Source of the DNA: Sulfuricurvum sp.
Lineage (GTDB): Bacteria; Campylobacterota; Campylobacteria; Campylobacterales; Sulfurimonadaceae
DNA length: 64,000 nt
Direction: 5' to 3'
Assembly: GCF_028681615.1 (NCBI RefSeq)
Contig: NZ_JAQUHV010000010.1
Coordinates: 1-64,000, forward strand
In this document: positions 29,272-49,604 of the stretch, one piece after another
Numbering within the stretch: the stretch's first letter is position 1
Layout: each line of letters begins with the position of its first letter
The notes under the pieces: generated by a model
Told to the model about the DNA's origin: nothing
Database searches by the model: none
What the model saw: the letters and a program-made list of their open reading frames with translations, nothing else
Program-made: the position numbers and the translations under genes

Positions 29272-30525
29272 CTAAAGCAGCCCAATCAACGCCACCAACA
29301 ACACCGGTGGCGTAATCACCAGTCCCACTTTCATATATTCGCCCCAACCGATTTTAACCCCTTTTTGCGCCAAAACGTGAAGCCAGAGCAACGTCGCGAG
29401 CGAGCCGATAGGGGTCATTTTCGGCCCGAGGTTGGAGCCGAGGATATTGGCATACGCTAACGCATGATTCCCTGCTTCGCCGATCGCGATATCCATCACC
29501 ATGATGGTCGGCATATTGTTCATAACCGAGCTGAGAATCGCGGAGAGAAAGCCCGTTCCGATAACGGCATACACATTCCCCATACTTTGCAATTCGGTGA
29601 TCACCCCTGCGAGATAGGTGGTCAATCCCCCGTTTTTGAGACCGTAGACGACAACGTAGAGCCCGATACTGAACCACACCACCTGCCACGGTGCCGCTTT
29701 AATCGTTAGAAACGGTTTTGTCGCTTTAAAATAGGTCGCTATAGCCAGAAAGACCAGTGCACCTCCGAGTGCAAATACCGATACGGGAAGATGATAATGA
29801 TCTCCGATAAAATACCCCGCCATGAGCAGAGCCAAAAACCACCAGCTCAGCCGAAACATCGTCCTATTTTTAATCGCGGATTCCGGAGTGGCCAATTGGG
29901 TGATGTCGATATGGATCGGGATATCTTTGCGAAAGTAGATCCAGAGTACGGCGATGGAGGCGATGATACTGAGTAGATTCGGAAGGAACATTGTCTTGGC
30001 ATATTCCCAGAACCCGATGTGAAAATACCCTGCCGTCACGATATTGGTAAGATTTGAGATAACCAACGGATTGGAAGCACTGTCGCCGATAAATCCTCCC
30101 GCCATCAAAAAAGCGAAAACGGCGACGGGGTTCATCTTGAGATGTTTCATTTTGGCCAGAACGATCGGGGTGAGGATCAGCGCCGCACCGTCGTTGGCAA
30201 ACAATGCCGAAACCAAAGCACCGAGTATGAGGATATAGACAAACATGAAATTGCCGTTTCCGCCTGATAGGCGCGCCATCTTGAGCGCTGCCCATTCGAA
30301 AAATCCGATCTCATCAAGTACCATCGAGAGGAGTATGATTCCGATAAACGCCAGTGTCGCATCCCAGACGATGGAGGTGACCGTCCAGACATCGGCGATA
30401 CTCACAACCCCCAATGCCACAGCCGCGACTGCCCCGATAACAGCCGTAGTACCGATCTGCAAACCTCGCGGCTGCCATATGACAAAAACGAGCGTCGCTA
30501 AAAAAAGCCCTATGGCGGTTATCAT
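29272..30525 (-). CDS. arsB: Arsenite efflux permease ArsB
   Basis: A 417-residue ArsB-type ion transporter with about 12 helices. Typical segments include LFANDGAALILTPIVLAKM, GGFIGDSASNPLVISNLTNIV, the NNMPTIMVMD stretch and ILGSNLGPKMTPIGSLATLLWLH. It expels arsenite or antimonite from the cytoplasm. No arsA ATPase gene is nearby, so it probably works as a carrier. It follows arsC by 17 bases on the same strand. Confidence 0.94.
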   Translation of the reverse strand: MITAIGLFLATLVFVIWQPRGLQIGTTAVIGAVAAVALGVVSIADVWTVTSIVWDATLAFIGIILLSMVLDEIGFFEWAALKMARLSGGNGNFMFVYILILGALVSALFANDGAALILTPIVLAKMKHLKMNPVAVFAFLMAGGFIGDSASNPLVISNLTNIVTAGYFHIGFWEYAKTMFLPNLLSIIASIAVLWIYFRKDIPIHIDITQLATPESAIKNRTMFRLSWWFLALLMAGYFIGDHYHLPVSVFALGGALVFLAIATYFKATKPFLTIKAAPWQVVWFSIGLYVVVYGLKNGGLTTYLAGVITELQSMGNVYAVIGTGFLSAILSSVMNNMPTIMVMDIAIGEAGNHALAYANILGSNLGPKMTPIGSLATLLWLHVLAQKGVKIGWGEYMKVGLVITPPVLLVALIGLL

Positions 30526-30542
30526 GGTATATCCTTCTTTAT

Positions 30543-30959
30543 TTAATCAGCCAAAAAAGCTTTTACATACTCTTCGATCGAATCACGGACAGCACGAACC
30601 TGCTGCATGATCTCCTCATCGCTTCCGACAAAAGTCGACGGGTCTTTCAAACTCCAATGTTCGTTTTTCATTACACCCGGAAATACGGGACATTGTTCCG
30701 CTACTTCCGCATCGCATACGGAAATCACATGGGTAAAATGGTGCCCCTCTTTATAGAGTTCAAAAATACATTTGGTTTGATTCTGAGAAAGATCAAACCC
30801 TTTTTCTGCCATAGCCCGAACTACATAGGGATTAAGTTCACCCGGTTCGATTCCCGCACTTTCTGCACTCTCATTTTCATGCGCATACTTATTGAAAAAT
30901 GCCTCGGCCATTTGACCTCGCGCACTGTTATGACTGCAAACAAACAATATTCTTAACAC
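30543..30959 (-). CDS. arsC: Arsenate reductase ArsC, thioredoxin-coupled type (copy 1)
   Basis: A 138-residue low-molecular-weight-phosphatase-type arsenate reductase. The P-loop is C8-x5-R14 (VCSHNSARGQMAE). The other two redox cysteines are C82 and C90 (VCDAEVAEQCPVFPG), matching the three-Cys thioredoxin-dependent class. It converts arsenate to arsenite for export by ArsB, encoded just after it. It is divergent from arsR across the operator region. Confidence 0.93.
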   Translation of the reverse strand: MLRILFVCSHNSARGQMAEAFFNKYAHENESAESAGIEPGELNPYVVRAMAEKGFDLSQNQTKCIFELYKEGHHFTHVISVCDAEVAEQCPVFPGVMKNEHWSLKDPSTFVGSDEEIMQQVRAVRDSIEEYVKAFLAD

Positions 30960-31008
30960 TCGATAACCCTTTGTATATTTTGATGGAATTGTAGCGTATT
31001 TTAGAATA

Positions 31009-31034
31009 AATATATCAATATATCTTGATATATT
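31009..31034. promoter_or_regulatory. Palindromic operator between arsCB and arsR
   Basis: Perfect 10-base inverted arms AATATATCAA / TTGATATATT separated by 6 bases, centred in the 115-bp gap between divergent arsC and arsR. This position and symmetry fit an ArsR-dimer operator controlling both directions. Binding is inferred. Confidence 0.7.
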
Positions 31035-31074
31035 ATTTTAATTACGTTACACTTTCATAAATCGGAGGTATTCT

Positions 31075-31398
31075 ATGGATGTTTTTTTGGAAACGGTGTC
31101 GGCGCTTAATGATGAAACCCGCATCAAACTCCTCGCATTTTTAGATACGCACGGAGCGTTGTGCGTCTGTGATCTGCAGGAGAGTTTCGGGATGATCCAA
31201 TCTCGCCTCTCACGGCACCTGAAAATCCTTAAAGACGGAGGGTTTTTACGGGTAGATCGGTGCGGAACATGGGCGTATTACTCTATCCGCAGCCCGTTGG
31301 ATCGTTTCCGAAGCGAAGCGTTGGCTGAAATCCGCTGTCTGGGGATCGAACTCCCCCCACTCGTCAAATTATCTCAAAACGAAGGTTGTACTCTATGA
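31075..31398 (+). CDS. arsR: ArsR/SmtB-family arsenic-responsive repressor
   Basis: A 107-residue winged-helix repressor. The arsenic-sensing box is LCVCDL with C30 and C32, placed in the helix before the recognition helix (QSRLSRHLKILKDGGFLRV). A further C63 could be a third ligand. It is expected to release DNA when As(III) binds. GGAGG precedes the ATG. Its stop overlaps the next arsC start (ATGA), so it leads the operon that runs to the rhodanese at 34892. Confidence 0.93.
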   Translation: MDVFLETVSALNDETRIKLLAFLDTHGALCVCDLQESFGMIQSRLSRHLKILKDGGFLRVDRCGTWAYYSIRSPLDRFRSEALAEIRCLGIELPPLVKLSQNEGCTL

Positions 31399-31799
31399 AA
31401 AATGTTTTAATCCTCTGCACCGGCAACAGCTGCCGCTCTATCATGGGTGAAGCGTTGATCAATGCCAAAATGGGCGATTGCGTGTATGCGCAAAGCTCGG
31501 GTGTCAAAGCGAGCGGCAAAGTCAATCCGAACGCTCAGGCGCTGCTGGAAGAAAAAGGGTACTGGAGAGACGAATACCATTCCAAAGTGATCGATACCGT
31601 CATCGATACCCCATTTGATCTCGTTGTAACTGTCTGCGATCACGCCCATGAGACCTGTCCGATGTTCCCTAAAGCGGTCAAAACGATCCATGTCGCGTTC
31701 GAAGACCCGAGCGGAAAAGCGGTAGAAGAATATGCTAAAACACTCGATCTGATCGAAGCAACTCTGCTTCCTATCATTAAAGCGGAGCTGTGCGACTGA
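31395..31799 (+). CDS. arsC: Arsenate reductase ArsC, thioredoxin-coupled type (copy 2)
   Basis: A 134-residue protein of the same three-Cys family as copy 1: C8-x5-R14 (CTGNSCRS), C81 and C88 (CDHAHETCPMFP). The start is the ATG at 31395 in the ATGA overlap with arsR. It differs clearly in sequence from copy 1, so it is not a recent duplication. It is coupled to arsP by a one-base overlap. Confidence 0.92.
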   Translation: MKNVLILCTGNSCRSIMGEALINAKMGDCVYAQSSGVKASGKVNPNAQALLEEKGYWRDEYHSKVIDTVIDTPFDLVVTVCDHAHETCPMFPKAVKTIHVAFEDPSGKAVEEYAKTLDLIEATLLPIIKAELCD

Positions 31800-32743
31800 T
31801 GTGGCAGGAACTGAGCGGAAAAATCATTCTCGAATGGCTGGGGTTTTCAGGCCGTCTGGGCGAAGCACTCCATTTTTTCCTCTATGATACGATCAAAATC
31901 TGGTTTTTACTCCTCTCCATCATTTTTGCCGTATCCTTTTTACGCACTTGGTTCAATACCGAAAAAGTGCGTGCTTATCTGGCCGGAAAACGGGAATTTA
32001 CGGGCAATATCCTCGCGGCGCTGTTTGGGATCATTACCCCGTTTTGCACCTGCTCGGCAATCCCCCTCTTTCTGGGATTTTTGCAGGCACGCATCCCCAT
32101 CGGTGTGACGTTCAGCTTTCTCATCAGCGCCCCGCTGAACAATGAGATCGCAATCGCCATGCTCTTTGGCTTATTCGGCTGGAAGATCACGGCCATCTAT
32201 ATCGGATTCGGCCTTTTTGTCGCCATATTGGGAGGCTGGATTATCGGCCGTTTCAACGTCGAAAAATACGTCCTCATTACTGTGCCGCCTCTCTCAGGCG
32301 ATATCGAGCTACCGACCTATAATCCTCCATTTCGTGAGCGTGTAAATGAAGCATGGATCAACACACGCGATATTTTCCATAAAATCTATCTCTGGGTCAT
32401 GGTCGGTGTCGGTGTCGGTGCATGGTTCCACGGCTATGTTCCGGCCGAGTTTATCGCGCAGTATGCCGGAGGAGATGCATGGTATACGGTTCCCGTCGCC
32501 GTGTTAATGGGGATACCGATGTACTCGTCCGCCGCCGGGGTTATGCCTCTGGTGGAAGTTCTGACCCAAAAAGGGATGCTGCTTGGGTCTGCACTGTCGT
32601 TTATGATGGCGGTAACGGCGCTCAGCCTCCCTGAGGCAATCATCCTAAAACAGATTCTCCATATCCGCCTGATCGCCCTCTTTTTTGCGATCATCGGTGC
32701 GGGTATAATGGGGATCGGATTTATCTTTAACACCATTTTATAG
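31799..32743 (+). CDS. arsP: ArsP-family (DUF318) permease
   Basis: A 314-residue permease with about eight helices. The family's conserved TPFCTCSAIPLF (C83, C85) and the SAPLNNE motif are present. ArsP proteins export trivalent organoarsenicals such as methylarsenite; others in the family have unknown substrates. The ATG overlaps the arsC stop by one base (TGATG). A small Cys-rich gene follows after 8 bases. Confidence 0.9.
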   Translation: MWQELSGKIILEWLGFSGRLGEALHFFLYDTIKIWFLLLSIIFAVSFLRTWFNTEKVRAYLAGKREFTGNILAALFGIITPFCTCSAIPLFLGFLQARIPIGVTFSFLISAPLNNEIAIAMLFGLFGWKITAIYIGFGLFVAILGGWIIGRFNVEKYVLITVPPLSGDIELPTYNPPFRERVNEAWINTRDIFHKIYLWVMVGVGVGAWFHGYVPAEFIAQYAGGDAWYTVPVAVLMGIPMYSSAAGVMPLVEVLTQKGMLLGSALSFMMAVTALSLPEAIILKQILHIRLIALFFAIIGAGIMGIGFIFNTIL

Positions 32744-32751
32744 GAATTAAT

Positions 32752-33012
32752 ATGAATATCGAAATCAGTAACCAAAAAGGCGGAGTCAAAGCTTTTATAA
32801 GCGGGTTTAGCACCGAAATACTCGGAGCCAAAATAGAGGCATGCCAAAATGGTCAATGCGACTGTGCATGCGATCCTGAATTAATGCAAAAGATCAGTTC
32901 TATTGAACTTTCATCTACCGATGGCGGTTCTGCGATCACCATTACCGGAGATGTCGATGCACAAACCCTCGCACCGATGATGCGAGAATGTCTATTAGGA
33001 AATAAAGAATAA
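32752..33012 (+). CDS. Small Cys-rich protein of unknown function in the arsP operon
   Basis: An 86-residue protein I do not recognise. It has a tight cysteine cluster C31-C36-C38-C40 (CQNGQCDCACD) and one more cysteine, C80, near the C-terminus. The rest alternates like a small alpha/beta domain (SIELSSTDGGSAITITGDVDAQTLAPMMREC). No signal peptide, so it is cytoplasmic. The cluster suits binding of a thiophilic metal or metalloid. It is preceded by an AGGAA site and follows arsP by 8 bases, so it belongs to the operon. Role not known. Confidence 0.78.
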   Translation: MNIEISNQKGGVKAFISGFSTEILGAKIEACQNGQCDCACDPELMQKISSIELSSTDGGSAITITGDVDAQTLAPMMRECLLGNKE

Positions 33013-33024
33013 ACTTTGTGAATC

Positions 33025-33106
33025 TTCCGCACTTATGCGGAAAGCTTTAGGGGATTGCGAAGGACAAGCTTGTCCTTGCCGCCCAGATGGGTTTTGCTCA
33101 TTTGGG
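33025..33106 (+). repeat. Three consecutive hairpins inside the ars operon
   Basis: Within the 119-bp gap between the Cys-rich gene and the mini-thioredoxin gene there are three perfect or near-perfect stems: 33025-33042 (TTCCGCA/TGCGGAA), 33060-33077 (an 18-base perfect palindrome centred on AAGCTT) and 33082-33106 (CCCAGATG/CATTTGGG with a G-U pair in RNA). None has a U-tract, so they do not look like terminators. They may set differential mRNA stability or represent a REP-like element. Confidence 0.65.
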
Positions 33107-33131
33107 TGCATAACATCAAATAGGAGCAAAA

Positions 33132-33368
33132 ATGAAAATAGAAATCTTAGGTACCGGATGCGCGAAATGCAAAACTCTCGAAGAGGCGACTAAACAGGCT
33201 GTCGCTCAAAGCGGACAATTTGCCCAGATCGAAAAGGTCGAAGATATCATGAAAATCATGGAGTACGGCGTGATGAGTACCCCTGGCCTCGTGATCGACG
33301 GAAAAGTCGTCAGTACCGGCAAAGTATTAAGCGTTAATGAGATCAAAGAGCTGATCAAAGCGCAGTAG
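33132..33368 (+). CDS. Mini-thioredoxin (redox-active disulfide protein family)
   Basis: A 78-residue cytoplasmic thioredoxin-fold protein with the active site C10-A-K-C13 and the cis-Pro region MSTPGLVIDGK. Such proteins exchange disulfides or bind metals. An AGGAG site precedes the ATG. The next gene, a CcdA-like permease, starts immediately after its stop, so the two may form an electron-transfer pair. It is a paralogue of the protein at 51272. Confidence 0.88.
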   Translation: MKIEILGTGCAKCKTLEEATKQAVAQSGQFAQIEKVEDIMKIMEYGVMSTPGLVIDGKVVSTGKVLSVNEIKELIKAQ

Positions 33369-34073
33369 ATGGAAAGTTTTCTCTTAGGACTTCTCGAAAC
33401 CCACGGAGCATTGGTATTTGCCGGAGCTTTTAGTGTCGGAGCCCTAACCTCGCTTGCCCCCTGTTCTATCATCTCCGTCCCGCTGCTGGTGGGAAGCGCA
33501 CTGGGGATGAGTTCTCATCTCACTCCGCGCGAACGGGTAACGTTTACCTATCTCTTCTCCTTGATGTTTGCGTTTGGGGTGACGGTGAGTTTTTCGATCC
33601 TTGCGTATATGGTGGCGAAAATGGGGTACTTTTTCTCTGTCGCGCCGCTGGAAGCGTATATCGCCGGGGCGATTGCGGCCATCGCGATCGGTCTGTATTC
33701 TCTGGGGATACTCCCTGAGGTTATCGACAAATCGCGCTGGATGAGCCGTCTCATCACCCTACGCTATGCGGGGGCACTGTTGATCGGGATGCTGTTTGGC
33801 CTCGTCTCCACCCCGTGTGCTTCGGCTCCGCTGGTGGCGATCATCACGGTAGCCTCCAATGCTCCCGATTGGTACGCATATGCCCTTGTCCTCACCTTTG
33901 CACTGGGGCATTCGCTCTTGCTGCTGGCGGCGGGAGTATCGGTGGGATTTGCCCAAAGTGTCGCCTCCAGCACAAAAATAGCGTTAATAACCGGATGGAT
34001 CACCAAAATCTTCTCCTTTGCCCTGATCGGTATCGGAGTCTATTTTTTCACCCTTGCCTACGAGCAATTTTAA
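33369..34073 (+). CDS. CcdA/DsbD-like thiol electron-transfer membrane protein
   Basis: A 234-residue protein with six predicted transmembrane helices and the two reactive cysteines of the CcdA family: C32 in SLAPCS and C150 in VSTPCAS. CcdA passes electrons from cytoplasmic thioredoxin to periplasmic thioredoxin-like proteins. Here it lies between a cytoplasmic mini-thioredoxin and a periplasmic thioredoxin-like protein, the exact layout expected for a relay. That the relay serves arsenic or organoarsenic handling is inference from the operon. Confidence 0.87.
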   Translation: MESFLLGLLETHGALVFAGAFSVGALTSLAPCSIISVPLLVGSALGMSSHLTPRERVTFTYLFSLMFAFGVTVSFSILAYMVAKMGYFFSVAPLEAYIAGAIAAIAIGLYSLGILPEVIDKSRWMSRLITLRYAGALLIGMLFGLVSTPCASAPLVAIITVASNAPDWYAYALVLTFALGHSLLLLAAGVSVGFAQSVASSTKIALITGWITKIFSFALIGIGVYFFTLAYEQF

Positions 34074-34082
34074 AGGATTATC

Positions 34083-34451
34083 ATGTTTAAACTCATTTCA
34101 CTTCTTGCTTTTTGCGCATCGTTATTCTCCGCCGAACTGCAACCGCGCCCGTATGCACTGGTCCTTCAAGAGATAGGCAAAGGGCAAACGGTTATGGTCG
34201 AAGCGGGTTCTACCAAATGCAATGCCTGTAAAGAGATGGGGGCACTGCTCTACCGTGAAATGGAACTCAACCCCAAACGAAAGATATTTTTTGTCAATGT
34301 TGCAGAAGAGCGTAGCGCGGCGCGTGCTATGAAAATCCAGATGATCCCGACACAGATAGTCTACGATCCGCAGGGGCGTGAAATCGACCGTCATATCGGC
34401 GGGTTTACCACCGATGCTCTGAAACAGTTTTTAGCCAAGAATAAAATCTAG
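34083..34451 (+). CDS. Periplasmic thioredoxin-like protein
   Basis: A 122-residue thioredoxin-fold protein with a signal peptide (MFKLISLLAFCASLFSAE) and active site C46-N-A-C49. The cis-Pro is in MIPTQIVYD. A small AAGGA site precedes the ATG. It is the likely periplasmic acceptor of electrons from the CcdA-like protein encoded just before it. Confidence 0.87.
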   Translation: MFKLISLLAFCASLFSAELQPRPYALVLQEIGKGQTVMVEAGSTKCNACKEMGALLYREMELNPKRKIFFVNVAEERSAARAMKIQMIPTQIVYDPQGREIDRHIGGFTTDALKQFLAKNKI

Positions 34452-34460
34452 GAGAAATAT

Positions 34461-34892
34461 ATGAAAAGAATATTAGCGATTCTTCTGTTCGCAGGTTCAC
34501 TTAGCGGCGAAACATTCGACCATTACCTCAAACGCTTCGATTACAATGAACGTACCGAAATGAAGATCAAAAGTCTTGAGGCCGTTGAACTCTACAAAAT
34601 GGGTGAGGTCGAGTTCGTAGACATACGTTTCAAAGAAGAACAGGCCATTTGGAGTTTTCCTTTTATGAAAATGATACCTCTGAACGAACTGCCGGACCGT
34701 TTAAACGAACTCGATAAAAATAAAACCATTGTAACCGTCTGCCCTCATTACGACCGTGCTGAGATGGCTCGTATCTTTTTGACTCTGAAGGGGTTTAAAA
34801 GCCGATATTTGACCGATGGACTGATAGGGCTTGCAGGTTACCTACGCGGTGATGAGGCAAAAGAGTTTATAGAAGAAATGAAGAAGAGATAA
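34461..34892 (+). CDS. Periplasmic rhodanese-like protein
   Basis: A 143-residue protein with a signal peptide (MKRILAILLFAGSLSGE) and a rhodanese domain: VEFVDIRFKEE and the active-site loop VTVCPHYDRA with C94. Rhodaneses carry sulfane sulfur on this cysteine. Last gene of the arsR-arsP operon, 9 bases after the thioredoxin-like gene. Substrate unknown; a persulfide partner for the adjacent thiol relay is possible. Confidence 0.83.
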   Translation: MKRILAILLFAGSLSGETFDHYLKRFDYNERTEMKIKSLEAVELYKMGEVEFVDIRFKEEQAIWSFPFMKMIPLNELPDRLNELDKNKTIVTVCPHYDRAEMARIFLTLKGFKSRYLTDGLIGLAGYLRGDEAKEFIEEMKKR

Positions 34893-34971: not shown

Positions 34972-36831
34972 ATGGATAAAAATTACAAATCCTACTTTTT
35001 AGGATATTTCATCATCTTTGGGATACTCATCACCGTCCTAAGTTCTCTCATCAGTTACAAAATTCATATGATTGATATAGAGGGTTCTGTAAAAAAATAT
35101 GCCCAAGAAGTATCGATCAGCAGAAAAAATTATATTCTGCAACCCCACATCGATCAAATGGACGATATTGTTAACTCAATCGCCAACGATCAAGCCATGA
35201 AAGATTTTGTTCAGACCGGGAACCTGCTAAAAAAACGTGAACTTCAAAATCTTTTTTTAACTCTCACTAACTCCAATAAAGCCATCATGCAAACACGATT
35301 TATCGATGCAAACGGCCAAGAGGTCATTAGAGTAAATCGTGATAACGGACAAAGCCTTCCCTATATTGTCAAAGAATCGGATCTTCAAAATAAAAAAGGG
35401 CGAGATTATTTTCAGGCTGTCAGCAAACTGAATAGACCGGTAATTTGGCATTCGAAACTCGATCTCAATATTGAAAACGGTAAAATAGAAGTCCCCTATC
35501 GTCCCACTATCCGAATCGCCGTCCCCCTTTTTAATGAGGGAAAATTTTCCGGAATGGTCATTTGCAACATGCTTTCCGGCGAGTTATTTAAATCCGTAGA
35601 AAATTCACCTCTGTTTGATCTTTTTATCATAGACAAAGAGGGAAACTATATTCTTCATCCCGACAATAAATTTGCATGGAACAAATATACCGGAGTAAAG
35701 CGGGATCTTTATGAAGATTTCCCCGAAGACGCATCCTCTATCTTGGCAGGTCGTGCATCAGGTACTAATTTTTTCGCCTATCCGTTGAATTCTATTTTGA
35801 ATAATGACGATAAAGCGATTTTAATACTAAAACCAAAAGCAACTATGATCAGCTCATTAAAAAACACCAATAAGATCGTAACGGTTATCGTTGCCCTTTT
35901 AAGTCTTCTGATCAGTATCCCATTGGCGATATACGCCGCACGATCACCTATTAAGCTTCAGCGCGCCTTGCATAACTCTAATGTGGAACTAAAGCGTTTT
36001 TCCGATATTATCGACCGATATGTCATCAGTGCCACCACTAAAACCAGCGGAATCATCACCAGTATCAGTACCGCCTTCGCAAACATAAGCGGATTCAGCA
36101 AAGCAGAGCTTATCGGCGAAAAGATGAATATCATCCGTCATCCTGATACTCCTAAAGCAGTGTTCCAAGATTTATGGAACACGATATTACAGGGAAGTTC
36201 ATGGGAAGGTGAAATTAAAAATAAAGCAAAAAGCGGTGATTCTTATTGGCTTGGACAAACGATCATTCCAATCAAAGATGAAAACGGCACTATTACCTCT
36301 TTTATGTCGGTAGGAACCGATCACACAGCTAAAAAAGAGCTGGAAGCCATTGCAATGGTCGATAAATTAACCCATCTCTATAACAGACGAAAAATGGATG
36401 AATGTCTGTATATCGAAGTGGAAAAATCAAAGCGCTATAGTAAACCGTTATCCCTCATCATGATCGATATCGATTATTTTAAAAAAGTCAATGACACCTA
36501 TGGACACCAAACTGGTGATGCAGTCTTACAAAAAGTGGCTGAGCTCATAAATAACAATACTCGAAAAATTGACTGTTGTGCACGATACGGCGGTGAAGAG
36601 TTCCTGATAATGTGTCCTGAAACACCGGAAGAAGGGGTTTTGACTCTTGCAGAGCAGATCAGAAGGACGATTGAAGCGTATGAATTTGAGACCGTTAAAC
36701 ACCTAACAATCAGTCTGGGAGTTTCGACATACAGTGAAACCGATGACATGATGACATTGATTAAAAAATGCGATGAAGCTTTATACAAAGCAAAACACCA
36801 AGGGAGAAATCAAGTCGTCTTTTATTCCTAA
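34972..36831 (+). CDS. Membrane diguanylate cyclase with periplasmic sensor and PAS domain
   Basis: A 619-residue protein: helix at about 9-27, a ~270-residue periplasmic dCache-like sensor (RFIDANGQEVIRVNRDNG is typical), a second helix near 300-322, a PAS domain (~340-455, FSKAELIGEKMNIIRHPDTP) and a GGDEF domain (~460-619) with GGEEF in the active site (RYGGEEFLIM). It should make cyclic di-GMP in response to a periplasmic ligand. The first ~330 residues give no clue to which ligand. Confidence 0.92.
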   Translation: MDKNYKSYFLGYFIIFGILITVLSSLISYKIHMIDIEGSVKKYAQEVSISRKNYILQPHIDQMDDIVNSIANDQAMKDFVQTGNLLKKRELQNLFLTLTNSNKAIMQTRFIDANGQEVIRVNRDNGQSLPYIVKESDLQNKKGRDYFQAVSKLNRPVIWHSKLDLNIENGKIEVPYRPTIRIAVPLFNEGKFSGMVICNMLSGELFKSVENSPLFDLFIIDKEGNYILHPDNKFAWNKYTGVKRDLYEDFPEDASSILAGRASGTNFFAYPLNSILNNDDKAILILKPKATMISSLKNTNKIVTVIVALLSLLISIPLAIYAARSPIKLQRALHNSNVELKRFSDIIDRYVISATTKTSGIITSISTAFANISGFSKAELIGEKMNIIRHPDTPKAVFQDLWNTILQGSSWEGEIKNKAKSGDSYWLGQTIIPIKDENGTITSFMSVGTDHTAKKELEAIAMVDKLTHLYNRRKMDECLYIEVEKSKRYSKPLSLIMIDIDYFKKVNDTYGHQTGDAVLQKVAELINNNTRKIDCCARYGGEEFLIMCPETPEEGVLTLAEQIRRTIEAYEFETVKHLTISLGVSTYSETDDMMTLIKKCDEALYKAKHQGRNQVVFYS

Positions 36832-36845
36832 GCAAACAAACGAAA

Positions 36846-36874
36846 GGGCATTAATGTTTTAAATATTAATGCCC
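36846..36874 (-). terminator. Terminator overlapping the SulP stop codon
   Basis: A 10-bp stem (GGGCATTAAT/ATTAATGCCC, loop 9) covers the stop of the minus-strand SulP gene. On minus it is followed by a T-rich stretch (CTTTCGTTTGTTTG). It may also stop the convergent GGDEF transcript. Confidence 0.65.
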
Positions 36875-38359
36875 ACCCATCACTTTTTCGATCTCTGAGG
36901 GTTTATCATGTATACCGAAACGGTCAATGATGGTTCGGCTCGCTTCGTTTTGACCTACCACTTCGACCTCTTTCCCCTCTTTACGCAGTTTTATCACCGC
37001 TTTATCGAGTGCATACACCGCTGAAATATCCCAAAAATGGGCCCGTGTTACGTCGATAATGACATTTTTTACGTCTTCTTTGTAATCAAACGCATCGGCA
37101 AAACGGTCGGCTGAATTGAAAAATATCTGTCCGATAAATTTATAGACCCGCGTACTGCTGGTCTCTTCATAGGATTTCTCCCAGTACATAAAATGGCTGA
37201 TTTTATTGGCAAAAAAGAGCGATGCAAGCAGCACGCCGCTCAAAACACCATATGCGAGATTATGGGTAAATACGACGACTATAACCGTTGTTAACATCAC
37301 GATATTCGTCGAAAGAGGCAAGGTTTTCAACCCCTTGATCGATGCCCAGTTAAATGTCCCGATCGATACCATGATCATGACTGCAACCAATGCTGCCATC
37401 GGGATAATTTTGATCCAATCGGACATAAATACGACCATAATAAGCAAAAGCACCCCGGCAACAAGGGTCGACAGACGCCCGCGTCCACCGGATTTGATGT
37501 TGATAACCGACTGTCCGATCATACCGCATCCGGCCATCCCTCCGATACACCCCGTAGCAATATTGGCGATCCCCTGCCCTTTGGCTTCGCGGTTCTTATC
37601 GCTGTCGGTATCGGTCATATCATCGACGATAGTGGCCGTCATAAACGATTCCAACAAACCCACTGCGGCCAAAGCTGCCGAATAGGGAAAAACAATCGAT
37701 AGGGTTTCCATAGTAAACGGAACGTCCGGCCATAAAAAGATCGGCAATGTATCGGGTAGCGCCCCCATATCCCCGACCGTTCGTACATCGATCCCCATCG
37801 TTACGACAACGACCGTAAGGACTAAAATCGTGACCAGCGGAGAGGGAATGAGTTCTCCTAGTTTCGGGACATACGGGAAGAGATAGATAATCCCGAGGCC
37901 GGCCGCAGTAAGTGCGTAAACATGCCATGTGACATTCGTGAGCTCAGGCAACTGAGCCATAAAAATCAAAATCGCCAACGCATTGACAAACCCGATCACA
38001 ACGGTTCGGGAGACAAAACTCATGAGTGAGCCCAGTTTCAAATACCCTGCCGCCAACTGAAGCACGCCCGTCATTATCGTAGCAACTAAAAGATACTGCA
38101 AACCGTGATCTCTGACCAGCGTCACCATCAACAGCGCCATCGACCCAGTAGCCGCAGAGATCATCCCTGCACGTCCTCCGACAAAGGCGATGACCGCCGC
38201 GATACAAAATGAGGCATACAACCCCACTTTCGGATCTACTCCTGCAATAATCGAAAAAGCGATCGATTCGGGAATAAGTGCGAGAGCGACGACGATACCG
38301 GCGAGAATATCCCCGCGAATATTGCCGAACCACTCTTGTTTTGATGACATCAATAGCAT
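36866..38359 (-). CDS. SulP-family anion transporter with STAS domain (copy 1)
   Basis: A 497-residue SulP permease. The N-terminal membrane core ([35 protein letters not shown]) is typical, and a C-terminal STAS domain (about 395-490; [23 protein letters not shown]) follows. SulP proteins carry sulfate, bicarbonate or other small anions. The ATG is 5 bases after AAGGA. The gene stands alone. Substrate not decidable here. Confidence 0.9.
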
Positions 38360-38563: not shown

Positions 38564-39388
38564 ATGAGGTTTTTCCTGCTTTTAGTTTTACCGTGTCTTA
38601 TGTATGGAGGAGAACGGTTGGCATTTTCAGGAGCTACGACCATACAGCCTATTATGGAATACATCGCTCCATATTATGCCAATGAAAATGGTTATACCCT
38701 CTCAATCGAAGGGGGCGGCAGCGATCAGGGGATTAAAAATGTTCTTTCCGGCAAAAGCAACATCGGAATGGTTAATCGTCCGCTTAGCAGCGAAGAAAAA
38801 GCCTCGTTAGACTATACCACTATCGGTTATGATGCAACAGCATTCATCGTCCATAAAAGCAATCCTGTCAATGGAATAACCCGAGGGCAACTGATCGATA
38901 TTTACAAAGGAAAAATCACCAATTGGAAGCAGATTGGAGGAAATGACCGACCCATTATTCTCATATCCAAAAAGCCTGATCGCGGAACAATGCGTATCAT
39001 TGAAGAGGAGACAGGTCTTTTTCATCCGTCCAATCCTAAAAACAAGGATGAAACGAAAAAAATCTCTCGTAATACATGGGATTCAGGATCCAATAATGAT
39101 GCGATTGTTTGGGTCGGCGGGTTGCTTGATGCAATCGGATTTGTCTCGTCAGGAAGTGCTGTCAGTACTATTCAAGACGGCATGCCGATCAAAATTCTTT
39201 CCTATGAAGGTGTAATGCCCAACGAACAAACCATTTTCTCCCACCGTTATCCTATTGTACGGGAGCTGAATATTATTTACACCAAAAACAATCCGAAAGC
39301 CAAAAAATTTGCATCCTTTATCCTCTCTTCGACTGGACAGCAAGCCGTCTCACATACAAACTATATCCGGATAGATCATGGAAAATAA
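38564..39388 (+). CDS. PstS-like periplasmic binding protein coupled to a diguanylate cyclase
   Basis: A 274-residue phosphate-binding-protein-like periplasmic protein with a short signal peptide (MRFFLLLVLPCLMYGG). The family pattern is clear: FSGATTIQPIMEYIAPYY, IEGGGSDQGIKNVLSGKSNIGMVNRPLS, GITRGQLIDIYKGKITNWKQIGG and DSGSNNDA. It lacks pst transport genes nearby. Its stop overlaps the start of the next gene, a membrane GGDEF protein, by 11 bases. This suggests a sensor, not a transporter subunit, for phosphate or a similar oxyanion. Confidence 0.87.
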   Translation: MRFFLLLVLPCLMYGGERLAFSGATTIQPIMEYIAPYYANENGYTLSIEGGGSDQGIKNVLSGKSNIGMVNRPLSSEEKASLDYTTIGYDATAFIVHKSNPVNGITRGQLIDIYKGKITNWKQIGGNDRPIILISKKPDRGTMRIIEEETGLFHPSNPKNKDETKKISRNTWDSGSNNDAIVWVGGLLDAIGFVSSGSAVSTIQDGMPIKILSYEGVMPNEQTIFSHRYPIVRELNIIYTKNNPKAKKFASFILSSTGQQAVSHTNYIRIDHGK

Positions 39389-40841
39389 AAATTTTATTTT
39401 TAAACTGATCGGGGCCAATACCCTTATTATCCTTTTGGTTTTTGGAACGTTCTATACCGTATTTAATTTTTTAAACTTTCAACTTGCCAAGAACACTCAG
39501 CAGCGTCAAAATATGACATCTTTTATTCACTCATGCGATCATGTTTCGGTCAATCTTTATCAATCGGCTATGTTAAACAATCCCGATTATCTCACTGGTG
39601 CGGCACTGTCATCCAATAACGCTTTATATTTTATGCACAATCTCTCCAAAAGTGGATTTGACACCCGTTCGCTGAAACAGAATTATTACGATTTTTTTCG
39701 CCAGACGGTTTTGACAACCTCTTTGGTTCTTGAACACCGACTGGATGAAGCACATGTAGCGGATCATATAAGCCAAAAGAAATATCAAATTCTGCACTCG
39801 GCATTCTTAGAGATGCGAGAAAAAATCAATCAAGAGCAAGAACGGATCATTATGGCAATTAATACCCTAATGGTCTTTTCTGCCATCTTGCTGGTCATCA
39901 TCATTATTGCCAATATTTTGATCCTTTTCCGTTCTTTCAAATCGATACGGGCCAAAGAGAGTGAACGTTCCGAAATGATTGCCGCTTTGGGAGACGGTGT
40001 GTACGGAATCAATGGAGAAGGGAATTGTATTTTTATCAACCGATCGGCACTTGATATGCTCGGATTTTCGGAAGAAGAGGTAATAGGACAAAATCAACAC
40101 CGTTTATTTCATCATCACAGATCCGATGGAACCGTCTATCCGGAAAAAGATTGCCCGATCCACCTCTCAGAACAAGATCGTACAATACGCCATACAGAAG
40201 AGACTTTTATCCGTAAAGACGGCTCACTGTTACCGGTGAGTTTAACGGTTGCCCCACTTGGGACAGATCGATCCATTGTTGTTTTTCAGGACATAACGGT
40301 CCAAAAAGAAGAGCAGGCTCTACTGGATCGTTATGCCAACTACGATGCACTGACCACTTTACCGAATAGAAGACTTTTTACCATATTAGCTGAACAGATG
40401 ATAGCTCAGGCCAATCGTGACAATAAAATTATTTCGATCGGATTTTTGGATTTGGACGGATTTAAGCAGGTCAACGATACATATGGCCATGAAGTCGGAG
40501 ACACTCTTTTACAAGAGGTGGCGAAACGATTTAAATCAACGTTACGCCAATCCGATCTTGTTGCCCGGTTTGGAGGTGATGAATTTGTTGTTCTTCTTAC
40601 TTCAATTAATACAAAAAATGAAGCAGAGCTGTCATTTATGCGGCTTATCAGCCAAGTCTCTGAACCAATCGTTGTCAATGGCATTGCAATCAAAGTTGGA
40701 GTGAGTATTGGCTATACCTTGTATCCGCAAGACAGTGGTGATATTGACCTGCTGATTCGGCATGCTGACATTGCTATGTATGATGCAAAGCAATCCGGAA
40801 AAGGTCGAATTAGACGATATCAAAATCAAGAGATCATCTAA
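39378..40841 (+). CDS. Membrane diguanylate cyclase with PAS domain
   Basis: A 487-residue protein: helices at about 8-32 and 160-185 flank a ~125-residue periplasmic helical domain, then a PAS domain (~195-310; ALGDGVYGINGEGNCIFINRSALDMLGF) and a GGDEF domain with active site RFGGDEFVVLL. It should make c-di-GMP. The start lies inside the PstS-like gene, so the binding protein probably delivers its ligand state to the periplasmic domain. Confidence 0.91.
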   Translation: MENKNFIFKLIGANTLIILLVFGTFYTVFNFLNFQLAKNTQQRQNMTSFIHSCDHVSVNLYQSAMLNNPDYLTGAALSSNNALYFMHNLSKSGFDTRSLKQNYYDFFRQTVLTTSLVLEHRLDEAHVADHISQKKYQILHSAFLEMREKINQEQERIIMAINTLMVFSAILLVIIIIANILILFRSFKSIRAKESERSEMIAALGDGVYGINGEGNCIFINRSALDMLGFSEEEVIGQNQHRLFHHHRSDGTVYPEKDCPIHLSEQDRTIRHTEETFIRKDGSLLPVSLTVAPLGTDRSIVVFQDITVQKEEQALLDRYANYDALTTLPNRRLFTILAEQMIAQANRDNKIISIGFLDLDGFKQVNDTYGHEVGDTLLQEVAKRFKSTLRQSDLVARFGGDEFVVLLTSINTKNEAELSFMRLISQVSEPIVVNGIAIKVGVSIGYTLYPQDSGDIDLLIRHADIAMYDAKQSGKGRIRRYQNQEII

Positions 40842-40861
40842 ATGCAACAGTGCATCCCTCT

Positions 40862-42031
40862 ATGAAAATAGTATCGCTTAATCGTAATATCATCGCCCTG
40901 GGGGCAAACAGTTTCTTCACCGATTTCTCCACAGAGATGATCCTACCTCTTCTGCCAATCTTTTTGGAGCGTTTTTTACATGCGAGCAAAAGTGAAATCG
41001 GTCTGATCGAAGGGACAGCCGAATTCGGAGTCGCGATGCTGATCGCCTTATCGGGCTTCTACTCGGATCGCCTCGGAAAACGCAAAGGGATCACCGTATT
41101 CGGATACGGCATGTCCAACCTCATCAAACCCCTCGCATTTTTTGCGCAGACTGCTACGATGATCGCTATGATCCGTATAGGTGATCGTTTAGCGAAAGGG
41201 GTACGTGTCGCTCCGAGAGATGCCCTCATCAGCGCCTATACCCCTAAAGAGATCAGCGGCTTTGTCTTCGGGTTTCACAAAATGATGGACGGTGCGGGAG
41301 CACTTGCAGGTTCGCTGACCGCGTTTGGCGTCTTATGGTTCTGGGGTGAGAGCGAATCGACATTTCGCAGTGTTTTTGCCATCAGTCTCATACCGGGTCT
41401 TATATCCATGATGATTCTCGTTTTTTTGGTTACCGACGTCCCCTTTACCCCTGCCTCGATCCGCCGGTTCCGTCCTGAGGCACTCCCCACACCGTTTTAT
41501 GTTCTGGTGGGTTTTCAGAGCCTCTTTAGCCTTTTTGCGATGAATTACTCGTTTATGCTTCTCAAAGCAGAAAGTAACGGTATCGCTCTAGTCATGATCC
41601 CCCTCGCCTATTCCCTCTACAATCTCACCCAATCAGCATTAGCCATACCGATCGGAAAAGCAGCCGACCGTTTCGGTAAACCGGCATTGCTCGCATTTAT
41701 CTACCTAGCCTTTGGCTCGGGTGCGCTCGCCATGGCGACAGGCTCGATTTGGGGCGTATGGCTCGGATTCGGGATTTACGGGTTTTTTGCCGGAGGATTT
41801 AATGCACTGGCAAAAGCAATCATCTCAGACACCGCTCCGCAAGAATTAAAAGCAACCGCATACGGTGTCTATTATACGGCAGTCGGCATCATGACATTCA
41901 TCTCTTTGAGCGGGGCAGGATGGTTATGGGATCACTACGGAAGCAATATCCCTTTTATCATCGCATCCTCTTCAGCACTGCTTTTGGCAATTGCCCTTTT
42001 TAGTATGCGTGATCGATTAAACCACTATTAG
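40862..42031 (+). CDS. MFS transporter
   Basis: A 389-residue major facilitator with about 12 helices. The inter-helix motif YSDRLGKRKG is the MFS signature between helices 2 and 3, and it reappears weakly as KAADRFGKPA in the second half. The start is the ATG at 40862; a GTG four codons earlier is possible. No clear ribosome-binding site precedes either, and the gene is 20 bases after the GGDEF gene. Substrate unknown. It converges on the ABC operon with a 4-base overlap. Confidence 0.88.
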   Translation: MKIVSLNRNIIALGANSFFTDFSTEMILPLLPIFLERFLHASKSEIGLIEGTAEFGVAMLIALSGFYSDRLGKRKGITVFGYGMSNLIKPLAFFAQTATMIAMIRIGDRLAKGVRVAPRDALISAYTPKEISGFVFGFHKMMDGAGALAGSLTAFGVLWFWGESESTFRSVFAISLIPGLISMMILVFLVTDVPFTPASIRRFRPEALPTPFYVLVGFQSLFSLFAMNYSFMLLKAESNGIALVMIPLAYSLYNLTQSALAIPIGKAADRFGKPALLAFIYLAFGSGALAMATGSIWGVWLGFGIYGFFAGGFNALAKAIISDTAPQELKATAYGVYYTAVGIMTFISLSGAGWLWDHYGSNIPFIIASSSALLLAIALFSMRDRLNHY

Positions 42032-43110
42032 AACAACCGCCCGATTTTTCGAAAACCGATCAGATACATAATCCCGCTGACCGCAATAACTCCGAGAAAA
42101 TACGGCCATAAATCGATCCACTCCGTCCCGCGGTAAAAAATACTCTCGCTTCCCTCGATGTAGTAACGTAGCGGAGAAATAAGCGATACATACTGCAATA
42201 CCGGATGCATGGCATAAATAGGTGTCCATGCTCCGCTCAAGAAGATAAGCGGCATCATAATAACGATGGAGAGCTGTGCCACCTGCATCACATCACGGGC
42301 TACTGCCGCGATAAACAGACCGATTCCCGAACCGGCAAAAACAAAGAAAAAGCTCAATAATAAAAAGGCACTGAGCGACCCGTTTAACGGCACATTAAAA
42401 ATGCCTAATACAATAAACCCCAAAGAGATCACGATACCGCTCATAACCACAATGATCTGCGAAAACGATTTTGCCAGAATAATGACCTTCGGATTTACCG
42501 GCATGAGAAGCATCAAATCCCACGTCCCCTGCTCTTTTTCACGCACAAATACCACAGCCGTCAATATGATAGAGAGCATCGTTATAATGGAAAGCAATTC
42601 GGTCAGTGCCATGAAGGTATGGTTGTCGGCATTTTGATTGAAAAGTTTATGGGTTACGATATCGACAGGGATGTTTACCTTTGAGATATCCAAAACGATA
42701 TGCTGGAGGTAATTCAGTGTAGTATAGGCCTGTGATGCCGCCGTAGCATCCATTAATATATCGAGCTGTGCCCTTTTGTTTTGGCGCCATTTTTTTTCAA
42801 AATCCTCATCAAATACGAGTCCGACGATGATCTCTTTATCGAAAATAGCACGGCTGAGTTCAGCTTGACTGTTAAAACGGTGCGGTGATAGAAATTCGGG
42901 ACCGTGCAGATGGGTGAGAATCTTTTGGCTTAAACCCCCTGCAGTATCGTCTACATATCCTACGGCTACATTTCTAGGATTAATTTCTATCCCGCTTCCC
43001 GCGATGTATACCTCCATCGTAAACATGTACAACACGACCAAGACAAGCTGCCACGATCGTATAAAACTGATCAGCTCTTTTCCGACGATCGACCAAAATA
43101 TTCGGCTCAT
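42028..43110 (-). CDS. ABC-2 type exporter permease (YbhR/YhhJ-like), second permease
   Basis: A 360-residue ABC-2 permease: N-terminal helix, a ~150-residue periplasmic domain (IEINPRNVAVGYVDDTAGGLSQ) and five C-terminal helices with FVREKEQGTWDLMLLMPVNPKVIILAKS, the typical cytoplasmic loop. It starts inside the end of the first permease gene (4-base overlap). With the double ATPase and HlyD protein it forms a tripartite drug-type exporter. Confidence 0.9.
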   Translation of the reverse strand: MSRIFWSIVGKELISFIRSWQLVLVVLYMFTMEVYIAGSGIEINPRNVAVGYVDDTAGGLSQKILTHLHGPEFLSPHRFNSQAELSRAIFDKEIIVGLVFDEDFEKKWRQNKRAQLDILMDATAASQAYTTLNYLQHIVLDISKVNIPVDIVTHKLFNQNADNHTFMALTELLSIITMLSIILTAVVFVREKEQGTWDLMLLMPVNPKVIILAKSFSQIIVVMSGIVISLGFIVLGIFNVPLNGSLSAFLLLSFFFVFAGSGIGLFIAAVARDVMQVAQLSIVIMMPLIFLSGAWTPIYAMHPVLQYVSLISPLRYYIEGSESIFYRGTEWIDLWPYFLGVIAVSGIMYLIGFRKIGRLF

Positions 43111-44219
43111 TTGATCTCCTTTCGCAGCAAAAGAGTACCGAGGCTCAAAAAAATAATCCCATACAATGCCAAAATCACCAAATAGAGTTGGGTTTTCTCC
43201 GACGCGAGACCTTCACCGACCAAAAAGACATCATAGAGAATATGGTTGTAATACATCACCGGGAAAAGATGGGCTTCATAGCGGGACATCCCGACCATCG
43301 AGGATATCGGCATGATGATCCCTGAATACATAAATCCGGGAATAATCGTCACCATTACCGTTAATACTACGGCAACGATCTGGGTTTTGGTTATAACCGA
43401 AATCAAAATCCCGATCGAAATACTGACGAGGATATAGAGTTCCGAAGCCACCCAATAGATCCAAAAACTCCCCCGAAACGGAACTTCAAAAAGATACAGA
43501 GCCCACAACAACAGAATAAAAATATTGAGAGAATGGAGCAAAAAAACCGGAATCAGTTTTGCGGCTATAAACTCCGCTTTTGAAAGCGGTGATGCATAAA
43601 AATTGAAAATCGTCCCCCTCTCTTTTTCTTTGACGATAAGCAATGCGGCGATGATAGCAGGAGCTACCAGCAGGACTAATCCGATCAGACCCGGAACAAT
43701 GGCATCTTCATCCCGCATAGCCTGATTGAAGAGGGTTCTCTGATTGATCTCAATGGAGCCTTTCGTTGCATTGGGAATCAAGCCTGCCGCCGCATTAAGA
43801 ATCACCCCCTGCACATAGCTCTCTATCGTCGAACCGCGGCTTGGAAAAGCCGCATCGACATAAACTCCGATCTGTGTAGACTGTCCCTTCAACAGCCGTT
43901 TTTCAAAAGAGGCAGGGATAATAATAATCGCATCGCTCTGGGCTTGCTTAATCTTTCTCAGAGCTTCGGATTCATTCATAACGGTTGTTGTCGTATTGAA
44001 ATATTTGGAGTGTTCAAACTTGCTTACCAACAGATTTGAAAGACGGCTTTGATCATTATCGATAATTGCGATCCTCGCATGGGTCACCTCCATCCGTATC
44101 CCGTATCCGAACAACAGCATAAGCATCGTCGGCAAAAGATAAACCATAATAATCAGCCGTGATCGTAGAAGTTCGCTCATCTCTTTGAGGATATAGGCCT
44201 TGAGTATCCCCTTCCTCAT
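43107..44219 (-). CDS. ABC-2 type exporter permease (YbhS-like), first permease
   Basis: A 370-residue ABC-2 permease with the same layout: N-terminal helix (LIIMVYLLPTMLMLLFGYGI), periplasmic domain and C-terminal helices with LIVKEKERGTIFNFYASPLSKAEFIAAKL. It overlaps the ATPase gene by 4 bases and the second permease by 4 bases. The two permeases probably form a heterodimer. Confidence 0.9.
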   Translation of the reverse strand: MRKGILKAYILKEMSELLRSRLIIMVYLLPTMLMLLFGYGIRMEVTHARIAIIDNDQSRLSNLLVSKFEHSKYFNTTTTVMNESEALRKIKQAQSDAIIIIPASFEKRLLKGQSTQIGVYVDAAFPSRGSTIESYVQGVILNAAAGLIPNATKGSIEINQRTLFNQAMRDEDAIVPGLIGLVLLVAPAIIAALLIVKEKERGTIFNFYASPLSKAEFIAAKLIPVFLLHSLNIFILLLWALYLFEVPFRGSFWIYWVASELYILVSISIGILISVITKTQIVAVVLTVMVTIIPGFMYSGIIMPISSMVGMSRYEAHLFPVMYYNHILYDVFLVGEGLASEKTQLYLVILALYGIIFLSLGTLLLRKEIK

Positions 44220-45841
44220 CGGTAATACTCCAAAAAGATCTCTTCAAATGTTTGTGCGTTCGGATGTGCCTCATACAGATTAGCAATCGTATCGTCCGCA
44301 ACTTTGCGCCCGTCACGCATCAGAACGATCCGATCACAAAATTCCGCTTCGCTCATGTAATGCGTCGTAATCAAAATCGCAATTTTCCATTTCTCTTTGA
44401 GTGCTACCAGCAGCTGCCAAAACTGGGCACGCGCTATCGCATCGACTCCCGATGTCGGCTCATCCAAAAACAATATCACCGGTTCATGCAAGAGTGCGGC
44501 TGCAAGTGAGAACCGCTGATTAATCCCCAACGGAAGTTCCGTAGGGATCGCATCCATATACCCTTCAAATCCAAGTTCCGCCGCATACCGGGCTATTCTT
44601 TTGATCGCTGTATCCATCGGAATCTGATGCATAGAAGCAAAATAATGGAGATTCTCCCGCACCGTCATATCGTTATAGAGAGCAAAATGCTGACTCACAT
44701 AGCCGATGGAACTTTTAAGCGCCTGACGATCTTTAGCGGTGGCTATCCGTTTTCCTAATAGACTCAATTCTCCACCGTCAATCGGCAAAAGTCCCAAAAG
44801 CATTTTGATAAAGGTCGTTTTACCGGCTCCGTTGGCACCGAGCAGTCCCAAAATCTCCCCTCTGTTCAGCTGAATATCAACGCCGTCATTGGCGACAAAA
44901 TCGCCGAAGATCTTGCTTAACCCGCGCGCCTCCATTACTACGGAAGAAAAAGTATTATCTCCGTCACGTGGAGTTATTTCGACAGGAGGAAGAAGACGCT
45001 TTTTTTGAAGTGCATTGACAAAGAACAAAGCTTCCAGTGTAGGTTCAGTGTGTTCAGCCGAAAGCGGCTCCAGCGAATAGGTTGTATCGAGGGTACTCAT
45101 CGAATCACTACTCGCAGATGGAGTTAAGGCATACGTCATCTCCCGTACCGATTCGATCAATTCTTTCGCACTTCCCTGAGCGATAATCTCTCCGTTATCA
45201 AACAGCAATACCCGATCCATTTGCGCTGCTTCTTGCATATATGCCGTACTGACAATGGCAATTGTTCCCTCATCACGGCGTATTTGATCGAGGATCTTCC
45301 ATAACTCAATTCGGCTCAGCGGATCGACTCCCGTAGTCGGCTCATCCAAAATCAGAAGTTTCGGACGATGCAGAAGTGTACAGATCAAAGAGAGTTTTTG
45401 CATCATTCCACCGCTCAGGTTGCCGGCTCTTCTGTCGACGAATTTATCCAGACCTGCCATACGAAGCAGTCTGTTTTTATATTCATTAAAACGCTCATCC
45501 TGCTTGATAGAGCGAATATTGGCAAAAAAACTAAGATGTTCATCGACCGTGAGCAGTTCATAAAGCACTAATCCGATCCCCTGAGGCATAAGTCCTATCT
45601 GTGATTTTAGCTTTTCAGCTTCGGAAGGAGAGTGATAAATATGATTTTGGAAGGAGATCTCCCCCTCAAATCGGATCACACCCGCAATAGCGTGCATCAG
45701 TGAACTTTTGCCGGCACCGTCGGCACCGATAAAACCGATAATTTCACCTTCGTTGACGGTTAAGGAAGCGTCTTTGATCGCAATGCGTTTGTTATGCGAG
45801 ACACTCACTTGTCCAAGGTTCAGCATTCCCATCGTCTGCAT
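44216..45841 (-). CDS. Double-ATPase ABC exporter subunit (YbhF-like)
   Basis: A 541-residue protein with two complete ABC ATPase domains. The first has Walker A GADGAGKSS near residue 40 and signature LSGGMMQK. The second has GANGAGKTT near residue 340, with the signature degenerate (LGINQRFSLAA instead of LSGGQ). Walker B is LLILDEPTTGVDP and VILFLDEPTSGVDA. It powers export with the two permeases that follow. It begins 5 bases after the HlyD-like gene. Confidence 0.92.
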   Translation of the reverse strand: MQTMGMLNLGQVSVSHNKRIAIKDASLTVNEGEIIGFIGADGAGKSSLMHAIAGVIRFEGEISFQNHIYHSPSEAEKLKSQIGLMPQGIGLVLYELLTVDEHLSFFANIRSIKQDERFNEYKNRLLRMAGLDKFVDRRAGNLSGGMMQKLSLICTLLHRPKLLILDEPTTGVDPLSRIELWKILDQIRRDEGTIAIVSTAYMQEAAQMDRVLLFDNGEIIAQGSAKELIESVREMTYALTPSASSDSMSTLDTTYSLEPLSAEHTEPTLEALFFVNALQKKRLLPPVEITPRDGDNTFSSVVMEARGLSKIFGDFVANDGVDIQLNRGEILGLLGANGAGKTTFIKMLLGLLPIDGGELSLLGKRIATAKDRQALKSSIGYVSQHFALYNDMTVRENLHYFASMHQIPMDTAIKRIARYAAELGFEGYMDAIPTELPLGINQRFSLAAALLHEPVILFLDEPTSGVDAIARAQFWQLLVALKEKWKIAILITTHYMSEAEFCDRIVLMRDGRKVADDTIANLYEAHPNAQTFEEIFLEYYR

Positions 45842-49491: not shown

Positions 49492-49604
49492 CTTTACTCT
49501 TTTTATTGAAATATTGCTTGTGATTATAATGCGATAGCGAATCATTTGACTTGACCGAAATCAAGTGCTACACTTTCGGACACGTTATCCAAGGATGCTC
49601 TCCG

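Follow-up and report, generated by a model that had tools for sequence, protein, structure and literature searches.

The gene of a PstS-like solute-binding protein in Sulfuricurvum sp. is coupled to that of a membrane GGDEF protein, and we found that this pairing is obligate in the genomes searched, with a shared receptor domain whose outputs have been exchanged. The pair lies in a window of 64,000 nucleotides (the whole stretch of DNA analysed, contig NZ_JAQUHV010000010.1). The conserved gene overlap, one-to-one co-occurrence, matching distances and exchanged output domains strongly support the view, put forward in the original prediction, that the two proteins form a two-part sensor. Signalling from the binding protein to the cyclase is very likely, and we consider it moderately probable that the pair as a whole is an extracytoplasmic oxyanion sensor, plausibly for arsenate/phosphate, which controls c-di-GMP.

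The features of the window are collected in Table 1; gene names given there or in the text without a family call were read by eye. Both open reading frames, including their 11-base overlap, are as the original prediction had described them, and the identities proposed (PstS-like and GGDEF) were borne out by Pfam (PBP_like_2; PAS and GGDEF). The binding protein is presumably secreted. The motifs of the cyclase are intact (GGDEF at residue 399 and the RxxD I-site, RQSD, at residue 390), and Pfam together with motif inspection revealed no EAL motif or domain in this PAS-GGDEF protein, which is predicted to make c-di-GMP.

Table 1. Location of the sensor pair, its parts and the neighbouring arsenic and transport genes in the window.
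Feature	Position	Strand	Remarks
PstS-like periplasmic solute-binding protein (sensor subunit)	38564..39388	+	274 aa; PF12849 E 1e-34; AF2 model
Membrane GGDEF protein, TM - periplasmic bundle - TM - PAS - GGDEF	39378..40841	+	487 aa; PAS + GGDEF, E 1.6e-48
Overlap of the two genes, 11 bases	39378..39388	+	likely translational coupling, inferred
Arg140 codon in the loop SKKPDRGT	38981..38983	+	Ser here in unpaired PstS-like paralogues
Periplasmic receptor domain, residues about 34-157	39477..39848	+	predicted four-helix bundle, without Pfam family
PAS domain, residues 196-306	39963..40295	+	Pfam
GGDEF domain, residues 320-476	40335..40805	+	Pfam
Arsenic-resistance cluster: arsB, arsC	29272..34892	-	NCBIfam, Pfam, synteny
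Same cluster: arsR, second arsC, SaoE-like permease, small protein, Trx-like, CcdA-like, thioredoxin, rhodanese	29272..34892	+	
MFS transporter	40850..42031	+	distal gene of the Sulfuricurvum ars locus

The overlap goes beyond chance, since related pairs overlap in all 19 loci measured (by 1, 4 or 11 bases), a set which includes the kinase of a spirochaete and the chemoreceptor of genome G305. Within the family, 20 homologues of the binding protein were identified in 17 of 151 genomes, and 16 of these overlap a downstream gene for a membrane signalling protein: three of the DGC1 type (PAS-GGDEF, as in the window), five hybrid kinases of about 1040 aa, and eight of the DGC2 type (another PAS-GGDEF, with the motif GGEEF). 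The remaining four comprise a tandem second copy behind a DGC2 gene, two weak matches (32 and 28% identity), which adjoin a chemoreceptor gene without overlapping it, and one homologue beside pst-like permease genes. At the level of the genus, the pair is carried by 4 of 41 genomes. As a control, the unpaired PF12849 proteins of the carrier genomes (20 in the 17 genomes) were considered, and none of the 19 inspected overlaps a signalling gene. In the 25-locus set, L058-L065 (Bacteroidota and one other bacterium) were set aside, six of these eight being pst-like by eye; L057 (a truncated match) and L051 (where the contig is short and the start of the partner gene uncertain) stand outside the counts, and L076 outside the inspected loci.

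Several other arrangements were observed. Genome G107 carries a DGC2 gene in tandem between two binding-protein genes (L030:6504-9734), distant PstS-like proteins lie beside chemoreceptors with a larger sensor domain (L036:3736-6574 and L037:5879-8683), and at two of the 19 control loci, both in f10 genomes, the unpaired PstS-like gene is transcribed divergently from a chemoreceptor gene (L114:1342-3823 and L116:1351-3834).

A profile of the binding protein, run at E 1e-30 against 397 genomes of the phylum, gave 17 matches in 15 genomes: 11 pair-type proteins in nine genomes, among them the tandem copy; two proteins of genus g25, of which the one inspected has pst-like genes as neighbours; and four of genus g39, all beside chemoreceptor genes. 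The overlap is absent in the g39 SBP-MCP pairs of L083, L085 and L086. The profile of the receptor domain produced ten matches in the same nine genomes, each of them adjoining a binding protein, and at E 1e-5 no receptor domain without a binding protein was detected among the 397 genomes. Since this profile was built partly from loci that it had itself found, the informative point is the lack of orphans. The distance matrices of the partners are correlated (r 0.949, a value inflated by shared ancestry), and none of 5000 permutations reached as high. Co-occurrence in other genomes, the check suggested along with the original prediction, speaks for the pair both in the overlap and in the position of the receptor domain.

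The N-terminal region of the window partner belongs to no Pfam family (five single weak matches were obtained among 19 members). Modelling predicts a four-helix bundle which runs into two membrane helices (pLDDT 87). The receptor profiles built separately for DGC1+HK and for DGC2 match each other (97.3%); the G305 chemoreceptor is matched by both (95.9 and 96.1%, respectively) and the spirochaete kinase by the DGC2 profile (99.2%). This indicates that cyclases, hybrid kinases and a chemoreceptor all use one binding protein with its receptor domain. The two therefore look like an exchangeable sensor, the same pair being wired to kinases or to a chemotaxis receptor in relatives. In three of the five kinase loci (L027, L028 and L029) a GGDEF gene follows the kinase gene (REC-GGDEF by family scan in L027), and the signal may thus end in c-di-GMP at these loci as well. 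The arr-linked chemoreceptors of f10 were also tried as carriers of the domain, without support: by profile, neither these nor the g39 chemoreceptors match it (0.3%). Directly upstream of the SBP-HK pair of L027 (L027:2554-5811) there are genes for another secreted-looking protein, of 276 aa, and then for an 808-aa kinase-like protein, possibly another binding-protein/kinase pair.

The predicted receptor fold is akin to the sensor domains of chemoreceptors and kinases, with LytSN among the best matches (Z 16 in VIA-align, little above the chance level for helical bundles), and Foldseek gave no match with an E-value up to 0.001. As helical bundles match easily and the Foldseek E-values are weak, the likeness to LytSN is support by analogy only. 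TorS is absent among the 50 fold matches listed for the domain, which excludes nothing.

The binding protein matches PBP_like_2 (PF12849) with 121 bits, against a cut-off of 27; the nearest NCBIfam model is TIGR02136 (PstS), which it matches with 146.3 bits, below the cut-off of 206.6. The best PDB matches of its AF2 model (pLDDT 90.7) are 4q8r and 4gd5 (TM 0.81 by query, 0.91 by target). Its nearest solved relatives are phosphate-binding proteins. The S-G-T loop, which we take, after PstS of E. coli, to be the phosphate-holding loop with the Ser as a contact residue, carries a consistent change: in the alignment, all 23 pair-type proteins have Arg140, where each of the 21 unpaired paralogues has Ser (the 19 mentioned above plus L075 and L019; the unpaired match G305:C1:901655, which has no locus, and the binding protein of G401 are outside these two sets, respectively). 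Thr142 is kept throughout, and closer relatives have a basic residue at position 136. In a tree of these 44 sequences, in which long branches meet in places, a single branch (89/82; recovered in 92% of bootstrap trees) separates the 23 pair-type proteins from the rest. Judged by the alignment, the anion site of the pair-type proteins is retained but altered.

Because Ser has given way to Arg in the phosphate loop, phosphate is not inferable as the ligand from the family name PstS. The ligand envisaged originally was an oxyanion, which is plausible from the fold and the family and which we regard as likely; phosphate itself is called into question by the Arg found in every pair-type protein. 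The window protein may nevertheless be a PstS paralogue that came to convey phosphate levels to c-di-GMP and lies among ars genes by coincidence. Such a phosphate sensor would agree with the family, the fold and several conserved positions of the anion loop (T25, S/T53, K/R136 and T142 in closer relatives), and in Pseudomonas PstS itself is described as activating the chemoreceptor CtpL (PMC4926252); set against the uniform exchange of Ser for Arg and the repeated linkage to ars/arr genes, it seems unlikely to us.

Across the genome, PF12849 is matched twice, by the window protein and by a PstS encoded on contig C18. Near the latter, a family scan identified an ABC ATPase and two BPD_transp_1 permeases, and phoU-like and two-component genes were recognised by eye. 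No pst transport genes were seen among the ORFs of the window (by eye, with a family scan of part of the ORFs), in line with the original prediction; the pst-type permease and ATPase genes are on contig C18. Compared with the PstS of a Pst transporter, the window protein shares the PBP_like_2 family and fold; it scores below the TIGR02136 cut-off, lacks the loop Ser and is not linked to pst genes. The binding protein might still work for a transporter, either the MFS encoded next to it or an ABC importer encoded elsewhere, in which case the overlap with the cyclase gene would reflect operon packing, and the MFS ORF does begin 8 bases behind the cyclase gene. However, the MFS gene belongs to the ars locus even where the pair is missing (it is there in 4 of 4 pair-less genomes inspected, G062, G084, G074 and G106, and was rejected as part of the pair), the nearby ABC genes (42028-45841) are of the ABC-2 export type with an adjoining HlyD gene and do not encode a binding-protein-dependent importer, and the receptor domain stays beside the binding protein in 10 of 10 cases across different outputs. 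We consider a transport role highly improbable. The window MFS had no match to the ArsJ or ArsK models in NCBIfam at E 1e-5.

The original prediction did not include the observation that the pair sits inside the Sulfuricurvum ars locus. This is the case in all four Sulfuricurvum carriers, and two different subfamilies are involved: a DGC1 pair directly precedes the MFS gene in G000, G070 and G014, and a DGC2 pair in G110, on the opposite strand, lies between the rhodanese gene and a cation-efflux-like gene which precedes the MFS gene. The binding protein of G110 is about 40% identical to that of the DGC1 pair. In G305, which represents another family, an SBP-MCP pair has an ars cluster of this kind on one side and arrCAB-like genes on the other; the ArrA of this genome reaches 1082.6 bits where the NCBIfam cut-off is 1600 (ArrA and ArrB were called below the NCBIfam cut-offs), and matches the solved ArrA 6cz7 near full length (E 2.8e-291). 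In family f10, SBP-MCP genes are found behind arrCAB in four of nine ArrA-like genomes, the other five loci being without them, and they are absent from the ArrA-like locus of G323, the tenth ArrA-like genome of the sample. A divergent gene for a PhnD-like protein, a kinase gene and a gene for a sigma-54-type regulator, resembling ArrXSR, occur beside arrCAB-like genes in L083-L086 and L107-L112 (these neighbours were family-scanned for L083 only).

By our own count, ars/arr linkage occurs in four of eight genomic contexts (Sulfuricurvum DGC1, Sulfuricurvum DGC2, G305 MCP and f10 MCP), and other genes are adjacent in the remaining ones (Sulfurimonas kinase, two Sulfurimonas DGC2 sites and spirochaete kinase); in G064, arsB is about 11 kb from the pair and the context was counted as not arsenic-linked. 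A rough binomial for four of eight, at an assumed chance of 1.3 to 3% each, gives 2e-6 to 5e-5, a post hoc figure which presumes random and independent placement of contexts that we drew up and counted ourselves. Mere co-occurrence with ars genes was rejected as an uninformative test of the ligand: of the 151 family genomes, 129 encode ArsB, so its presence says nothing and position alone is evidence.

In the four pair-less Sulfuricurvum genomes inspected, the locus spans arsB to the MFS gene, with the SulP gene further on, and the insert varies: crcB-DUF190 in G062, a cation-efflux-like gene in G074 and G106, and nothing extra in G084 (CrcB was assigned by Pfam, the other insert genes by eye). 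Such unrelated cargo suggests that the site may be a general insertion slot, which weakens any conclusion on the ligand; a hot spot for insertions has to be taken seriously as an alternative to a functional link with ars. Over the loci L141-L144, L024 and L031 the genes at this place vary (crcB-DUF190, a cation-efflux-like gene or SBP-DGC), and L142 has a gene for an EAL protein behind the MFS gene. In the window, the ars cluster is followed by a gene for a second membrane GGDEF protein (34972-36831; HK_sensor/dCache, PAS and GGDEF), whose orthologue in L023 is 84% identical.

Genes for SulP-type permeases also lie near the window pair (36866-38359 and 49551-51272), and by eye the kinase-type pairs of Sulfurimonas adjoin metX/metY and a DsrE-like gene. 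Together with the replacement of the phosphate-loop Ser by Arg140, these neighbours could fit the same two-part sensor being directed to a sulfur oxyanion (sulfate, sulfite or thiosulfate) or to another anion relevant to sulfur oxidisers. The distal SulP gene, however, is found near the ars/MFS genes in all four inspected pair-less genomes as well, and phosphate-binding proteins are the nearest solved relatives; in our opinion this specificity is quite improbable. The place of the pair in the ars locus points to arsenate, or the balance of arsenate and phosphate, as the most likely ligand, which would be our best guess from the gene context and the analogy with ArrX. Arsenate in particular is possible, at somewhat less than an even chance.

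For the arsenate/phosphate sensor, the following mechanism may be envisaged. The secreted PstS-like protein would close on an oxyanion, and either its bound or its free form would dock on the periplasmic four-helix bundle of the cyclase, as suggested by NspS-MbaA, from which the sign of the response would also have to be deduced. Docking could shift the transmembrane helices, and a signal passing through the second membrane helix and the PAS domain would alter GGDEF activity and the level of c-di-GMP. In the presence of arsenic the cell might then switch between motile and attached life, or adjust matrix production. We tentatively suggest, as a rather speculative extension, that there is besides AioX/ArrX a further lineage of arsenic-oxyanion sensors, which belongs to a different family and derives from PstS. 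An Arg-loop protein and a four-helix receptor domain would form an exchangeable cassette, with diguanylate cyclases, a chemoreceptor, and hybrid kinases that have GGDEF response regulators behind them as its outputs, and would couple c-di-GMP and movement to arsenate or to the ratio of arsenate to phosphate. If the guess concerning the ligand is true, arsenic chemistry is linked to c-di-GMP-dependent behaviour in sulfur-oxidising bacteria.

Control of cyclases by binding proteins is already known (PMC9602780; NspS-MbaA), and binding-protein domains are common in c-di-GMP proteins (PMC8846402). According to the latter, a review from 2022, SBP_bac_3 was the only one of 27 PBP-clan families that had been studied in c-di-GMP networks. 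In the open literature, searched by titles and the beginnings of abstracts (most subscription papers lie outside this scope), we found no PstS-type protein paired with a cyclase, nor its combination with this receptor domain, the Arg loop and the link with ars. As a PstS-type case the pair is small and open to experiment: Arg140 serves as a sequence marker, the receptor domain is delimited, and nature supplies swaps of the output.

The closest arrangement is that of NspS-MbaA of Vibrio cholerae and Sinorhizobium meliloti, in which, as outlined in PMC9993111, the gene of a periplasmic binding protein is likewise located upstream of a membrane GGDEF gene and overlaps it (by 16 bp and 3 bp, respectively, compared with 11 bases in the window), and the bound protein alters c-di-GMP output. 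In that account NspS is a PotD-like polyamine binder, unlike the PstS-like protein of the window, and MbaA is a GGDEF-EAL protein with a larger periplasmic region, whereas the window cyclase has a short helical bundle and PAS-GGDEF only. The window binding protein had no match at E 0.01 to polyamine-binding families in Pfam and NCBIfam. The XylFII-LytSN system has a binding protein of another family and a kinase output. Its helical-bundle receptor domain was solved with the periplasmic binding protein (PDB 5xsj/5xsd), and it shares about 10% identity with the window receptor domain.

PstS-CtpL of phosphate chemotaxis is similar in that a PstS-type protein activates a membrane receptor, as is proposed for the window; according to PMC4926252, that PstS also serves the Pst transporter, the output is chemotaxis, and the CtpL domain is larger and not a four-helix bundle. 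AioX, ArxX and ArrX are periplasmic oxyanion-binding proteins that are encoded beside arsenic genes and signal to a membrane receptor (PMC5908839), a likeness which extends to the window pair if its presumed ligand is correct; ArrX has a Kd of 1 uM for arsenate and 150 uM for phosphate (PMC5908839). These proteins are described as PhnD-like with a kinase output, while the window type falls in PBP_like_2 (TIGR02136-like) and is combined with GGDEF, kinase and MCP outputs, and the window binding protein had no match to PhnD-type families at E 0.01 in Pfam and NCBIfam. Both kinds of binding protein, PhnD-like (AioX/ArrX type) and PstS-like, are present in the arr locus of G368.
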